DNA from: Fulvivirgaceae bacterium JP3-4
GTDB lineage: Bacteria > Bacteroidota > Bacteroidia > Cytophagales > Cyclobacteriaceae
Direction of reading: 5' to 3'
NCBI GenBank assembly: GCA_029309925.1
Contig: JARKND010000005.1
Coordinates: forward strand, 558,001-622,000
DNA length: 64,000 nucleotides
Positions within the stretch are counted from its first letter, which is position 1. Every line of letters starts with the position of its first letter. Under the pieces are notes generated by a model. That model saw only the letters and a program-made list of their open reading frames with translations. It ran no database searches and was not told the origin of the DNA. A program made the position numbers and the translations under genes. Positions 6,334 to 9,635 of the stretch are shown here, one piece after another.

Positions 6334-6885
6334 ATGTCCACTTTCCTGACCAGCACGCGCAAACTATTTCAGTACTATAAAGGTCTTGGTGAAAAGACTT
6401 TTGATCAGCTGAATGATGAACAGATCAACTGGCGCCCGAACGAAGCGAGCAACAGCATTGCTTTGATTGTGCACCATTTATCCGGCAACATGCTCTCGCG
6501 CTTTACAGACTTCCTGACGTCAGATGGCGAAAAGTCGTGGCGTAATCGGGAAGCGGAGTTTGAAGTCGGCTATGCTACGAAAATCGAGATGCTCGAAGCC
6601 TGGAATAAAGGCTGGGCCGTTGTTTTTCAGGCGATCGATGGGCTCACTGGGGCGGACCTTGAAAAGGTTATCTACATCCGGAACGAAGGTCAGACCGTCA
6701 TGGAAGCGCTTCAGCGGCAGCTTGCCCACTACCCGCATCATATCGGCCAGATTCTGTATATCGGCAAGGCTTTAAAAGGTCAGGACTGGAAGTCGTTATC
6801 GATACCGAAAGGCGGTTCTCAGCGCTATAATCAGGATAAATTCAGCCAGGAGAAGGAAATTCGCCATTTTACCGACCGTACGTAG
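6334..6885 (+). CDS. DinB-like / DUF1572 family protein
   Basis: This 183-residue protein resembles the DUF1572 branch of the DinB/YfiT four-helix superfamily. The features are NWRPNEASNSIALIVHHLSG near residues 30-50 and QLAHYPHHIGQILYIGKALK near 130-148. The histidines in these two segments (IVHHLSG and HYPHHIGQ) are the probable metal ligands of this superfamily. DinB-like proteins include thiol-dependent S-transferases and many members of unknown function, so the reaction cannot be given. It starts 18 bases after the desaturase terminator and reads independently. Confidence 0.82.
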   Translation: MSTFLTSTRKLFQYYKGLGEKTFDQLNDEQINWRPNEASNSIALIVHHLSGNMLSRFTDFLTSDGEKSWRNREAEFEVGYATKIEMLEAWNKGWAVVFQAIDGLTGADLEKVIYIRNEGQTVMEALQRQLAHYPHHIGQILYIGKALKGQDWKSLSIPKGGSQRYNQDKFSQEKEIRHFTDRT

Positions 6886-7041
6886 CGATTTCGGGCTGAG
6901 AAATTCCGATTTCTGATTGATCGCGTTTGGAAATTATGACCGGAGAATTAAATTTGCACTCCCTTTCAAGGATTACACACGCAGAACGGGCTTCCTGCCT
7001 TTCTTTGTTTTTTGTAATTTGGTTGTTGGGAAGTTTTACAA

Positions 7042-7115
<74 letters not shown>

Positions 7116-7130
7116 AAAATGAAAAACAGA

Positions 7131-7158
7131 AGTGTGAGTTTCGGGCTCACATTTTTTG
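7131..7158 (+). terminator. Intrinsic terminator of tRNA-Gly
   Basis: The sequence tgtgag tttcggg ctcaca is followed by tttttt, 18 bases after the tRNA end. Confidence 0.85.
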
Positions 7159-7182
7159 TTTAAAGGAGGTTGATTAGTGCAA

Positions 7183-7352
7183 ACGTTGATCCGTTGACTA
7201 GTTGATCCGTTGATTCGTGGAGATGGAAGCAAAGGGCATCTGTTTTTTCTAATGACTAATGCCCGATGCCTAATGCCTCTTCCGAGGATAATCTCCGAAT
7301 TAACACGACACCTGCATTCACTAATGACTAATTACCAGTGACTAGTGACTGT
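7183..7352. repeat. Word repeats, themes GTTGATCCGTTGACTAG and ACTAATGACTAATGCC
   Basis: Bases 7183-7221 repeat gttgatccgttgattag-like words. Bases 7250-7277 repeat taatgactaatgcc. Bases 7318-7351 repeat actaatgactaat and gtgactagtgact. They fill the space between the tRNA-Gly terminator and the tRNA-Leu array. No gene is visible. Confidence 0.55.
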
Positions 7353-7355
7353 CAA

Positions 7356-7785
7356 GCCCGGGTGGTGGAATTGGTAGACACGTCCCGATTAAGATCGGGA
7401 TGGCCGGTAATGCCCGAGGAAAATAGATCGATAAGGAAATTGCCCTGGTGGTGGAATTGGTAGACACGTCCCGATTAAGGTCGGGATGGCCAGTAATGCC
7501 CGAGGGAAATAGATCGATAAGGAAATTGCCCTGGTGGTGGAATTGGTAGACACGTCCCGATTAAGATCGGGATGGCCAGTAATGCCCGAGGAAAATAGAT
7601 CGATAAGGAAATTGCCCTGGTGGTGGAATTGGTAGACGCGTCCCGATTAAGATCGGGATGGCCAGTAATGCCCGAGGAAAATAGATCGATAAGGAAATTG
7701 CCCTGGTGGTGGAATTGGTAGACACGTCCCGATTAAGGTCGGGATGGCCAGTAATGCCCGAGGAAAATAGATCGATAAGGAAATT
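7356..7785 (+). repeat. Five tandem 86-bp tRNA-Leu-like units with palindromic anticodon arm
   Basis: Units start at 7356, 7442, 7528, 7614 and 7700. Each is exactly 86 bases, the same length as the intact tRNA-Leu that follows at 7786. The first 27 bases (acceptor 5' strand and D arm, gccctggtggtggaattggt then agacacg) and the variable-arm segment agtaatgcc match the tRNA. The anticodon arm is replaced by the palindrome tcccgattaagatcggga. The T arm and acceptor 3' strand are replaced by cgaggaaaatagatcgataa then ggaaatt. Units differ from each other at only one to four bases (for example taaggtc in units 2 and 5, and gcccggg at the start of unit 1). Without a T arm or pairing acceptor they should not work as tRNAs. 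Confidence 0.9.
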
Positions 7786-7871
7786 GCCCTGGTGGTGGAA
7801 TTGGTAGACACGCAGGACTTAAAATCCTGTGGGCAGTAATGCCTGTACGGGTTCAACTCCCGTCCGGGGTA
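7786..7871 (+). tRNA. tRNA-Leu (anticodon TAA)
   Basis: This 86-base type II tRNA is intact. The acceptor gccctgg pairs with ccggggt (with G-T pairs), and the discriminator is A at 7871. The D arm contains ggtggaattggtagacac. The anticodon stem is cagga / tcctg around CTTAAAA. The variable arm is gggcagtaatgcct, and the T arm is acgggttcaactcccgt. CCA is not encoded. It is the only complete copy at the end of the five degenerate units and upstream of two GIY-YIG cassettes. Confidence 0.95.
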
Positions 7872-7877
7872 CACACT

Positions 7878-7911
7878 AAGAGATGCTGCGTTGAGTGGTA
7901 TCTCTTTTTTT
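7878..7911 (+). terminator. tRNA-Leu terminator, copy 1
   Basis: The stem agagat / atctct (7879-7884 and 7900-7905) is followed by seven or so T, running straight into the ATG of the GIY-YIG gene. The same hairpin recurs 386 and 772 bases later. Confidence 0.75.
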
Positions 7912-8160
7912 ATGTTTTATGTATACATTCTAAAGTCTGAAACAAGTGGCCGGTACTACATCGGTTATTCAGAAGATCCAGACCGCAGGCTTGCTGAACA
8001 CAATTCCGGAAAGGTAAAGTCAACACGCAATTTTCGTCCTTGGGTCAAGATTTATACCGAGGCTTTTCCTGATGAGGTTTCCGCGATTAGACGTGAGCGG
8101 GAAATAAAATCGATGAAAAGCAGAAAATATATTGAATCGCTTTTGCAAAAGCATTTTTAG
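7912..8160 (+). CDS. GIY-YIG nuclease family protein, cassette copy 1
   Basis: This 82-residue protein consists of a single GIY-YIG domain. YVYIL (residues 3-7) and YYIG (15-18) form the GIY and YIG strands. Conserved arginines lie in EDPDRRLAEHNSG, and a basic, acidic-tipped helix follows (AIRREREIKSMKSRKYIESL). The length matches the small YhbQ/UPF0213-type members. GIY-YIG enzymes are single-strand-nicking or homing-type DNA nucleases, and the target of this one is unknown. I chose the ATG rather than an upstream TTG because the TTG lies inside the terminator hairpin. The ATG directly abuts the T tract of the tRNA-Leu terminator, so expression probably depends on readthrough or an internal promoter. 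Confidence 0.9.
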   Translation: MFYVYILKSETSGRYYIGYSEDPDRRLAEHNSGKVKSTRNFRPWVKIYTEAFPDEVSAIRREREIKSMKSRKYIESLLQKHF

Positions 8161-8169
8161 ACCAAGTTG

Positions 8170-8256
8170 GCGCTGGGTGGAATTGAGTATACACGTCCCG
8201 ATCTTAATCGGGATGGGCAGTAATGCCTGTATCCCGATCAATCGGGACAAGGGGTA
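8170..8256 (+). pseudogene. Hairpin-substituted tRNA-Leu remnant, cassette copy 1
   Basis: This 87-base segment aligns end to end with the intact tRNA-Leu: gcgctgggtggaattgagta at the start, gggcagtaatgcctgta in the variable arm and aggggta at the end. Both the anticodon arm (tcccgatcttaatcggga) and the T arm (tcccgatcaatcggga) have become perfect palindromes of the same TCCCGAT family. It starts ten bases after the GIY-YIG stop codon. The T-loop consensus ttcaa is lost, so charging and elongation-factor binding are unlikely. Confidence 0.85.
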
Positions 8257-8263
8257 CACACTA

Positions 8264-8297
8264 AGAGATGCTGCGTTGAGTGGTATCTCTTTTTTTT
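8264..8297 (+). terminator. tRNA-Leu terminator, copy 2
   Basis: Same agagat / atctct hairpin and T run as copy 1, displaced by 386 bases. The T run is one base longer. Confidence 0.72.
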
Positions 8298-8546
8298 ATG
8301 TTTTATGTATACATTCTAAAGTCTGAAACAAGTGGCCGTTACTACATCGGTTATTCAGAAGATCCAGACCGCAGGCTTGCTGAACACAATTCCGGAAAGG
8401 TAAAGTCAACACGCAATTTTCGTCCTTGGGTCAAGATTTATACCGAGGCTTTTCCTGATGAGGTTTCCGCGATTAGACGTGAGCGGGAAATAAAATCGAT
8501 GAAAAGCAGAAAATATATTGAATCGCTTTTGCAAAAGCATTTTTAG
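8298..8546 (+). CDS. GIY-YIG nuclease family protein, cassette copy 2
   Basis: The 82-residue product is identical to that of the gene at 7912. Reading the two side by side I find one silent base change (CGG to CGT in the Arg codon of SGRYY). The whole 386-bp cassette around it, from the end of one tRNA-Leu copy to the end of the next, is duplicated with only a handful of changes, so the duplication is recent or is maintained by gene conversion. The domain assignment is as for copy 1. The identical protein under silent change hints at selection, but one substitution is weak evidence. Confidence 0.9.
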   Translation: MFYVYILKSETSGRYYIGYSEDPDRRLAEHNSGKVKSTRNFRPWVKIYTEAFPDEVSAIRREREIKSMKSRKYIESLLQKHF

Positions 8547-8555
8547 ACCAAGTTG

Positions 8556-8642
8556 GCGCTGGGTGGAATTGAGTATACACGTCCCGATCTTAATCGGGAT
8601 GGGCAGTAATTGCTGTATCCCGATCAATCGGGACAAGGGGTA
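8556..8642 (+). pseudogene. Hairpin-substituted tRNA-Leu remnant, cassette copy 2
   Basis: This is the same 87-base tRNA-Leu derivative as at 8170-8256, with palindromes tcccgatcttaatcggga and tcccgatcaatcggga in place of the anticodon and T arms. It differs by one base (taattgctg for taatgcctg). A third terminator copy follows. Confidence 0.85.
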
Positions 8643-8649
8643 CACACTA

Positions 8650-8684
8650 AGAGATGCTGCGTTGAGTGGTATCTCTTTTTTTTT
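8650..8684 (+). terminator. tRNA-Leu terminator, copy 3
   Basis: Third copy of the agagat / atctct hairpin with a run of nine T. Similarity to the cassette stops here, which marks the right edge of the repeated locus. I see nothing in 8685-8828. Confidence 0.72.
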
Positions 8685-8828
8685 CCGTTCTGCTCGGCTT
8701 GGTGCTCTTAAATTTTGCACCGACATAACCGCACTCTTAGGTCGACAGATGCGACCCGGAGCACGCCACGGTAAAACGAAACTCTTCAAAAGAAGGCAAT
8801 CTAAAACCTGCAATCACTTCCCAAAAAA

Positions 8829-9635
8829 CTAATACTCCCCCTCCAAAGTCGCATCTTCAAACCTTTTTGGAATCACTGTCCAGCCATACCTGTCGCGAAG
8901 TTTTCTTAGTTTGTTAATGGAGTAGCTGGAGGGAGGACCGCTCAAAAAAGGACTTTCATCTACGTTCCAGTAATCCTGTATGTTGATGGTTCCGGTTCGT
9001 GGATTGTTTATCACCGAATCGTGAATGCGCGCAATCATGCGGTCTGCGTTCGGTGTATTCATACTGTTCGAGCCTGAAAGTTCGAGGTAGGTAATTTTGT
9101 TAGTAGTAGAAAGTATAAGTTCGTGTAGGCGTGCCGTTACGTAGAATTTCGCACTGACCAGCTCTTTATTCCTTGACAAATTAACAACATAAGGGCTGTT
9201 CGGCATGTAGTCTAATATCACTTCACGCAGATTGGTCAAACCTCCGAAATGGATTTTGTCAATAACCATATCCAGATCTGAAATCTCGAACCGTGTGATG
9301 GTTTGGATGTCGCCTGAAACTCTGGCCATATAATTTTTGCGCGTGGCATAGCGGTGAGTAAACGCGACCTTTTCATTAGCGTAAAGGACTTTCTTTTCTA
9401 TAACACCATCGCCCCAGTTGACTGACACCTTTCCTCCGTTTCCCGTTAAATAGAAATTCAATGTGTGGTAGTTGTAAAGGTAAGTCAGGTAGAAGGTCAG
9501 AAACTGGTCTTCGTAGTAGTTGGCCGAAGTTTTAGCGTCTTCTGTTAACGAAGTTGGTTCACCAATTTCATCCTGGGAACAGCTGCTGAAAAAAACTAGC
9601 AGCATAATGGGTAAGAGCCTGTATAAAGATTTCAT
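8829..9635 (-). CDS. Lipoprotein with PKD-like and leucine-rich-like regions
   Basis: Starting from the ATG at 9635 the 268-residue product opens with a lipoprotein signal (MKSLYRLLPIMLLVFFSSC). A longer frame exists upstream but would bury this signal. Residues about 55-115 hold a beta-rich stretch (VNWGDGVIEKKVLY, then FTHRY) that resembles a PKD fold. After it come lines such as LTNLREVILDYMPNSPYVVN and TNKITYLELSGSNS, which resemble the irregular leucine-rich repeats of BspA-type surface proteins. It is predicted to be anchored in the outer membrane. The function is unknown. No operon partner is visible. Confidence 0.75.
   Translation of the reverse strand: MKSLYRLLPIMLLVFFSSCSQDEIGEPTSLTEDAKTSANYYEDQFLTFYLTYLYNYHTLNFYLTGNGGKVSVNWGDGVIEKKVLYANEKVAFTHRYATRKNYMARVSGDIQTITRFEISDLDMVIDKIHFGGLTNLREVILDYMPNSPYVVNLSRNKELVSAKFYVTARLHELILSTTNKITYLELSGSNSMNTPNADRMIARIHDSVINNPRTGTINIQDYWNVDESPFLSGPPSSYSINKLRKLRDRYGWTVIPKRFEDATLEGEY

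Follow-up and report, generated by a model that had tools for sequence, protein, structure and literature searches.

The window analysed here, a 64,000-nucleotide stretch of the genome of Fulvivirgaceae bacterium JP3-4, contains an intact transfer RNA gene for leucine (tRNA-Leu) that stands among spoiled, hairpin-bearing copies of itself and is followed by two genes for a small nuclease of the GIY-YIG superfamily. Here, we describe this locus and compare it with its relatives in the same order and phylum, which are cited by handle (L for loci, G for genomes) where they need to be told apart. Taken together, the sequences point to mobile elements resident on tRNA genes, a widespread family that is apparently undescribed.

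The tRNA-Leu locus and its GIY-YIG genes

The intact tRNA-Leu(taa) gene was called by ARAGORN at 7786–7872 on the forward strand, on which all of the copies, terminator-like hairpins and nuclease genes described below also lie. This tRNA-Leu(UAA) is the sole full-length match in a search of its own genome, and ARAGORN calls just one tRNA-Leu at the locus and none of the spoiled copies. Upstream are five partial tRNA-Leu copies of 86 bp, arranged head-to-tail at 7356–7785 (starts at 7356, 7442, 7528, 7614 and 7700), any pair of which are 1–4 bases apart. Each comprises tRNA-Leu positions 1–58 with the anticodon arm swapped for an 18-nt hairpin, and ends in a non-tRNA tail. The hairpin is TCCCGATTAAGATCGGGA in three of the five copies, including the first (7383–7400), and TCCCGATTAAGGTCGGGA in the other two; in copies 2–5 it occupies 7469–7486, 7555–7572, 7641–7658 and 7727–7744.

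Downstream of the intact gene are two cassettes with a period of 386 bp, each made up of a terminator-like hairpin (7878–7906 and 8263–8291), a GIY-YIG gene (7912–8160 and 8298–8546, unlike each other at 1 of 249 bases) and a tRNA-Leu-derived copy (8170–8257 and 8556–8643); a third terminator-like hairpin (8649–8677) ends the array. Both of these copies carry two hairpins, which replace the anticodon arm (8196–8213; 8582–8599) and the T arm (8232–8247; 8618–8633). A 46-bp sequence of tRNA end plus terminator is identical at all three places where it occurs in the window. The three terminator-like sites all lie on the forward strand between 7878 and 8677, and shuffled sequences average 2.3 such sites over both strands. 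An earlier note on this DNA had described an intact tRNA-Leu with five copies before it and two cassettes and a third terminator after it, and coordinates, repeats and open reading frames (ORFs) bear this out. The same note called the copies tRNA-length and degenerate; copies they are, but they are not freely degenerate: a hairpin cleanly takes the place of one arm, and the tRNA sequence around it is retained.

The nuclease gene encodes 82 aa, of which residues 1–72 match the Pfam domain PF01541 (GIY-YIG; 5e-18). Seven residues are invariant across 19 aligned proteins (Y5, Y16, G18, R26, H30, N31 and E62), and the predicted structure is a single compact model with a mean predicted local distance difference test (pLDDT) score of 91.6. 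In its domain, its conserved Tyr/Gly, Arg and Glu residues and its fold, the protein belongs to the GIY-YIG superfamily. The best sequence matches are small GIY-YIG proteins of the UPF0213/SLX1 type, which share the single-domain fold, and the nearest folds are UPF0213, SLX1 and then I-TevI. SegB, a phage nuclease compared below, is longer than 82 aa, and both SegB and I-TevI have a separate C-terminal DNA-binding region; none is present in the 82-aa protein, judged by the extent of its Pfam domain (1–72) and its compact model.

Recurrence beside tRNA genes

Relatives of the window protein occur in 77 of 194 genomes of the order. The set of 112 loci counted here consists of the places listed in a scan of the order and a search of congeners, with weaker places outside the set; L141 (no match), L068 (the same place as L003) and the fragments L070 and L118 were dropped before counting, and 20 of the regions include many chosen for tandem layout or high list rank. 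A tRNA gene on the same strand adjoins 66 of the 112 GIY-YIG loci, ending at most 170 bp before the gene in 56 (median 48 bp) and starting at most 80 bp after it in 10; on the opposite strand a tRNA is found at the same distances in two. For a random gene, adjacency to a tRNA is roughly estimated at 0.2%, assuming 45 tRNA genes in 4.5 Mb. Seven loci have a tRNA at 171–400 bp only, and 39 have none. These 39 include all 21 members of one well-supported clade, none of which lies beside a tRNA in the sampled genomes, a difference from the tRNA-linked genes in what we take to be UPF0213-like proteins. Outside this clade, 66 of 91 loci are tRNA-linked. The earlier note had asked whether genes of this family are tied to tRNA genes elsewhere; the association is strong (66/112, or 66/91) but not universal, given a clade that is never linked.

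The neighbouring tRNAs span fifteen amino acids, fourteen of them on the main protein tree described below (a doubtful Gly left out) together with Cys. In 52 of the 66 linked loci, the neighbouring tRNA scores higher against the far side of the nuclease gene than any of 100 shuffles, and in 48 of the 66 it also outscores every tRNA of another amino acid in the set. Two layouts occur: either the intact tRNA is followed by the gene and a 3′ copy, or, in mirror form, a 5′ copy is followed by the gene and the intact tRNA (for example at L021, L026, L029, L032, L048 and L056). By eye, the nuclease gene at L026, L044, L054 and L056 takes its stop codon from the TAG in the D loop of the tRNA or tRNA copy that comes next. 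The earlier note had the cassettes begin and end at the tRNA 3′ boundary, which is not the simple rule in relatives: there the junction of the element falls inside the tRNA, with a D-loop stop codon in several, and the mirror form exists.

The tandem layout of the window is also widespread. Nuclease cassettes number five at 450 bp beside tRNA-Leu in G423, five at 315 bp beside tRNA-Asp in G479, four at 322 bp beside tRNA-Pro in G078 and three at 378 bp beside tRNA-Asp in G164, and the repeat unit is approximately 315–450 bp in most arrays. Copy number is not fixed among relatives and varies, and cassettes sit beside many tRNA genes other than tRNA-Leu. Searches of related genomes for a cassette-free locus, which the earlier note had suggested, found one in both congeners: in G194 and G195, the two other genomes of the genus examined, a tRNA-Gly is followed by a single tRNA-Leu, with neither repeats nor a nuclease gene in the sequence inspected. 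The same tRNA-Gly(gcc) is called by ARAGORN in the window at 7042–7115 (forward strand), and the gene sequence upstream of the locus in both congeners resembles that of the window by eye (presumably a DinB-like gene in G194 and a desaturase-like gene in G195). The outermost repeat of the window begins GCCCGGG, like the tRNA of G194, and the other four repeats and the intact tRNA begin GCCCTGG, a pattern compatible with the outermost copy being the end of the old resident tRNA. For the Arg type, G196, a congener of G105, is empty at tRNA-Arg(cct), the site of the element. These comparisons of occupied and empty sites are all between species.

Across the phylum, profile matches at E ≤ 1e-8 were found in 191 of 296 sampled genomes, which is an upper bound because the never-linked clade also matches the profile. 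The phylum sample returned 29 further loci (three of them from genomes already sampled), of which 27 have a same-strand tRNA. In three closed genomes, 19 of 28 nuclease loci lie beside a tRNA or a transfer-messenger RNA (tmRNA): seven of seven in G423, five of 11 in G479 and seven of 10 in G377. Among 18 loci without an ARAGORN tRNA in place, the RNA neighbour is a tmRNA in one and a tRNA in six; another 11 loci without an ARAGORN tRNA gave no Rfam match. At L119 (G132) and L315 (G479) a GIY-YIG gene lies downstream of tmRNA on the same strand, and tmRNA may be a further target.

For methionine, one genome per species was scanned with six Met-type proteins. Among the best 80 of 507 hits, two of which are self-matches (L201 and L268, the places of two query proteins), the nearest upstream tRNA is tRNA-Met(cat) in 64 (47 initiator, 17 elongator), tRNA-Met lies downstream in one and no tRNA lies within 500 bp in 15; no other tRNA occurs. 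Two of these 15 loci, L264 and L273, have a tRNA-Met-like stretch 550–720 bp upstream. The hosts of Met-type elements belong to several orders of Bacteroidota and to Balneolota and Rhodothermota.

Hairpins, nuclease lineages and tRNA types

A perfect palindrome with arms of at least 7 that is lacking from the intact tRNA was found in 62 of 94 extra copies or copy groups, compared with 11 of 74 intact tRNAs and 175 of 1428 random windows; the extra-copy windows vary in length and include 25 additional bases on each side, which favours hairpins there. Where the hairpin sits was recorded as the last tRNA base before it and the first after it, with tandem copies taken singly and at least six places entered twice (L054/L182, L029/L183, L049/L198, L201/L035, L231/L195 and L268/L090). 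The site is 27/45, spanning the anticodon arm, in 12 of 20 Ala, six of nine Leu, 11 of 19 Pro and four of five His copies; it is 31/45 in 12 of 23 Asp copies and 44/51 in four of seven Asn copies. In 83 of 98 Met copies it runs from 36–38 to 47–49, directly past the anticodon loop. In the Arg type the hairpin lies in the D loop at L021 and L056 and further on at L022. Judged by these counts, hairpin placement is typical of the tRNA type. The earlier note had seen the palindrome as a feature of a tRNA remnant; it is instead a recurrent, position-specific part and no accident of decay. We are aware of no precedent for such a hairpin swap.

At L021, an Arg-type locus, tRNA sequence is 100% kept on either side of the inserted hairpin (positions 1–21 and 22–54). 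The 20-bp palindrome of this type was found at four places in three of six genomes searched, three of the six having been chosen for holding Arg-type elements, and every place is inside a spoiled tRNA copy; one of the four is a tRNA-Leu copy without a nuclease gene. A genome-wide repeat was accordingly rejected as the identity of the Arg palindrome, which is confined to tRNA copies in these six genomes. With regard to dispersal of the kind known for repetitive extragenic palindromes (REPs) and their REP-associated tyrosine transposases (RAYTs), the Arg palindrome keeps to tRNA copies in the six genomes, and a second palindrome, built on TCCCGAT and described at the end, has nine of its 18 sites outside element loci. 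At L146 (G009), a hairpin-interrupted 5′ copy of tRNA-Leu(tag) immediately precedes the intact gene, and no nuclease gene separates the two.

A more ordinary account of such loci is local duplication, in which a small nuclease gene was already in place, the tRNA gene beside it was copied in tandem to either side, and the extra copies are simply decaying. The spoiled copies do look non-functional, and the Met-type tree holds some vertical signal. We nevertheless regard ordinary duplication and decay as very improbable: it does not account for hairpins of the same place and sequence class across different families and orders, nor for a nuclease that neighbours many tRNA types, and the exact tRNA sequence on both sides of the hairpin at L021 is unlike random decay.

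The pattern TCCGNN-(2–4)-NNCGGA preceded by TA, as in the anticodon loop of the copy, occurs 3′ of the gene in 64 of the 80 Met-type loci and in none of 1600 shuffles. This pattern fixes the outer four pairs; the inner two, which it leaves free, match in 64 of 64, with 16 differing from the commonest pairs on both sides, and the loop varies in length from 2 to 4. Of the 16 loci without the pattern, at least three (L227, L236 and L245) show an imperfect hairpin, and some are cut by contig ends. Where the copy begins was scored for 43 initiator-Met copies, of which 37 start at tRNA position 18–30.

Pairing held through double changes would suit a nuclease that recognizes structure. An SLX1-like, structure-specific enzyme might cut the hairpin within the spoiled copy, and the break would recombine with neighbouring copies; the unit would then multiply in place and occasionally move to similar tRNA genes, with no sequence-specific cutting of empty sites. 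By sequence as well as by fold, the protein is closest to UPF0213 and to the structure-specific SLX1 and not to homing enzymes, the Met-type hairpins keep their pairing and vary in loop length as this account would have it, tandem arrays are common, and the intact tRNA would be no target, which removes the problem of self-cutting discussed below. On its own, this local amplification leaves unexplained the presence of the element in one species and its absence from congeners at the same tRNA, the tRNA-type-specific place of the hairpin and the spread over Bacteroidota orders, and we consider it rather unlikely. A broader idea, which remains tentative and which we think somewhat less doubtful than this, is that the nuclease works in partnership with the hairpin copy, as a DNA cruciform or an RNA decoy, and that this copy is no scar; a minimal structure-specific nuclease and an isoacceptor-matched tRNA copy with a conserved hairpin in place of an arm would then form a new class of mobile element or RNA-guarded system.

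Nuclease lineage and tRNA type were compared on a tree of 104 proteins, which leaves out eight truncated or over-long ones. Its 67 tRNA-linked rows include those with a tRNA as far as 360 bp upstream; L027, L028 and L044 were labelled by hand, and L109 is labelled Gly, though its downstream sequence fits tRNA-Leu better. Amino-acid type requires 22 changes on this tree, where shuffles average 50.6 and go no lower than 44; host family requires 28, where they average 33.4 and go no lower than 30. In neither case were any of 300 shuffles as low as observed. Nuclease lineages track tRNA type better than host family. On the Met-type tree, the initiator/elongator label changes nine times, against a possible minimum of one and a shuffled mean of 15.3, which points to moves between tRNA genes. 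One supported clade of nine Flavobacterium rows has two linked to elongator (L232 and L275) and six to initiator tRNA, and L261, which has no tRNA within 500 bp.

A protein matched to one isoacceptor also recalls toxin–antitoxin systems, of which type III consists of tandem RNA repeats, a terminator and a nuclease. Applied here, the GIY-YIG protein would attack one tRNA type at the arm missing from the copies, and the transcribed hairpin copies would be decoy antitoxin RNAs. In the window the order of parts (five tandem copies, terminator, nuclease) fits. Protein and copy match in isoacceptor, it is the whole anticodon arm that is most often replaced in the Ala, Leu, Pro and His types, and units without an intact tRNA nearby persist (L173 and L312). 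Many relatives, however, have no upstream copies; many copies, the truncated initiator-Met ones among them, lack the acceptor 5′ strand and the D arm and are unable to fold as a whole tRNA; and a toxin–antitoxin role gives no reason for the position of the unit beside an intact gene. The fold energies of two window copies lie below those of shuffles (z = −3.5 and −3.1), but hardly discriminate, the intact tRNA also reaching z = −2.6, and fold prediction cannot settle the decoy reading because the intact tRNA is likewise not predicted as a cloverleaf. We judge an RNA toxin–antitoxin system to be distinctly improbable.

A candidate homing element and its known counterparts

As read from the sequences, the architecture, the recurrence beside many tRNA types, the match between lineage and type, the placement of the hairpins, the empty sites in congeners and the tandem arrays would all suit a homing-type mobile element on tRNA genes, which keeps one working copy, tags its other copy with a hairpin and multiplies as tandem repeats; we give this reading about an even chance, or very slightly better. 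The element would consist of a single-domain GIY-YIG gene and a spoiled, hairpin-bearing copy of the targeted tRNA gene, beside one intact copy. Each nuclease lineage would target a single tRNA type, or types that closely resemble one another, and would cut an unoccupied tRNA gene near the site at which the spoiled copy bears its hairpin. Repair of the break off the occupied chromosome would copy in the nuclease gene, leaving one working tRNA and one copy in which a hairpin stands in for the target arm. Further breaks and recombination between repeats could then expand both the nuclease cassettes and the spoiled tRNA copies in tandem. We infer the DNA cutting, the cut site, the repair-driven transfer and the function of the hairpin as a mark that makes the copy uncuttable. 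Of the minimal homing cassette proposed in the earlier note, a recurrent, tRNA-associated GIY-YIG element of variable copy number is borne out, and homing itself is presumed.

Several observations weigh against a homing element. The main difficulty is that the intact tRNA at an occupied locus should remain a target, and a homing cycle does not explain its escape from cutting: no change protecting it was found, and the hairpin interrupts the extra copy only. Recognition of the outer flank as the reason for this escape is unsupported, as the window repeats the tRNA end and terminator unchanged three times. The nuclease has no domain beyond its 82-aa core. Host family is non-random on the main tree, so vertical inheritance matters too, and the Met-type tree partly keeps host taxonomy (the order label changes 24 times, compared with 41.5 in shuffles). 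The match between lineage and tRNA type could stem from recombination in the tRNA-derived flanks alone, without any specificity of the enzyme. Among the 91 loci outside the never-linked clade, seven have a tRNA at 171–400 bp only and 18 have none; nine of the 28 nuclease loci in the three closed genomes have neither tRNA nor tmRNA as a neighbour; and 14 of the 66 linked loci have no detected second tRNA copy on the far side of the gene. L146 has a hairpin-interrupted copy without a nuclease, and L173 and L312 are elements without an intact tRNA nearby. The last two loci hold hairpin-bearing tRNA copies and a nuclease gene, yet no tRNA is called in either; L312 is flanked by direct repeats of approximately 100 bp, by eye.

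Two traits of free-standing homing endonucleases are seen. The gene lies beside its presumed target, the tRNA (66/112; 65/80 for the Met type), and occupied and empty alleles exist, here between species (G194 and G195; G196 for the Arg type). Integrative elements whose attachment sites are tRNA 3′ ends also keep the tRNA working and leave a partial tRNA copy at their far end, as is the case here. They differ in that the gene here is a GIY-YIG nuclease and the copies are hairpin-swapped and start at a place inside the tRNA that varies by type. The 386-bp cassette is too small for an integrase gene, and none of that size is in the ORF list, from which the other short cassette ORFs were not scanned. 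Homing endonucleases are also carried by group I introns in tRNA genes (e.g. the cyanobacterial tRNA-fMet intron), another case of a homing nuclease directed at a tRNA gene. A group I intron was rejected for positions 6800–9000 of the window, where Rfam at E ≤ 1 gives just two tRNA matches and one tRNA-like match.

The closest parallel in phages is SegB of T4 and T6, a free-standing GIY-YIG homing nuclease encoded beside tRNA genes which, according to the accessible part of PMC13096335, drives tandem amplification of tRNA-Tyr and segB in T6. T6 escape mutants contain tandem 718-bp repeats of tRNA-Tyr and a C-terminally truncated segB, and the 5′ end of the tRNA shares microhomology with the 3′ end of segB, as given in the accessible parts of PMC13096335 and PMC2988022. 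SegB is phage-borne whereas the elements here are chromosomal, and the accessible part of PMC13096335 describes no hairpin-swapped tRNA copies and reports no tRNA isotype preference. Among phages and plasmids, the matching records (23 and three) are all below 60% identity, and the best 20 of 28 phage records with DNA similarity match the tRNA-Leu part only. None of 12 pattern-matched stretches in viral contigs codes for a relative of the window protein, and no tRNA is annotated in the region inspected of Rhizobium phage RHph_TM30, the sole phage region opened.

A second parallel is provided by mobile ORFs of fungal mitochondria (Allomyces atp6; Glomus atp6, atp9, cox2 and nad3), in which, as described in the accessible part of PMC3630166, an endonuclease gene lies between the supplied 3′ end of a working gene and the native copy. 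The likeness is an endonuclease gene between a working gene and a second copy of the gene end. The fungal cases concern protein genes whose supplied end is the diverged one; the native end resembles that of relatives and, in atp9 and nad3, is still transcribed (PMC3630166, accessible part). In the tRNA elements, by contrast, a hairpin interrupts the extra copy, whose 3′ end often appears, by eye, identical to that of the intact tRNA. The likeness to SegB, to fungal mobile ORFs and to tRNA-site elements is partial, and every comparison shows at least one clear difference. A prior description of an element made of a tRNA, a GIY-YIG gene and a hairpin copy was not found in the open-access literature searched (subscription papers and preprints were not covered), and the accessible part of a survey of the GIY-YIG superfamily (PMC1564403) mentions tRNA three times, once for an enzyme fusion and twice in references.

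Across many Bacteroidota, a family of very small elements appears to make use of tRNA genes, which are among the most conserved sequences of the cell. Such a family would account for many of the small GIY-YIG genes that stand alone in these genomes, would give phage SegB a chromosomal counterpart and would offer nuclease lineages beside tRNAs for fifteen amino acids.

The genome of JP3-4 holds a second locus of this kind, in which a tRNA-Ala is preceded by two hairpin-swapped copies and followed 41 bp downstream by a GIY-YIG gene; its copies carry the same TCCCGAT palindrome as the window locus. In the 5.8 Mb of this genome, the palindrome TCCCGATN{0,12}ATCGGGA has 18 sites, seven at the window locus and two at the tRNA-Ala locus, and a reversed control pattern has none. 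Six of the nine sites elsewhere were read, and four of them (L008, L009, L018 and L019) resemble an apparently separate intergenic repeat around TCCCGAT...ATCGGGA. At L010 (1501–1517), in a neighbourhood checked by ARAGORN only, the palindrome TCCCGATGCTATCGGGA lies directly upstream of a tRNA-His. A different GIY-YIG lineage, whose protein ends ...RLKNYL, is found at L306 (1470–1760) and L314 (900–1310) in G479, with no Rfam RNA match in either locus; inverted ACCCCGTCAAAT and ATTTGACGGGGT stand on either side of the L306 gene and suggest a palindrome-flanked element of a separate kind. In the window itself, short TAATGACTAATGCCCGATGCCTAATGCC-type repeats occupy 7160–7350, between the tRNA-Gly and the array, and similar wording occurs in G194.

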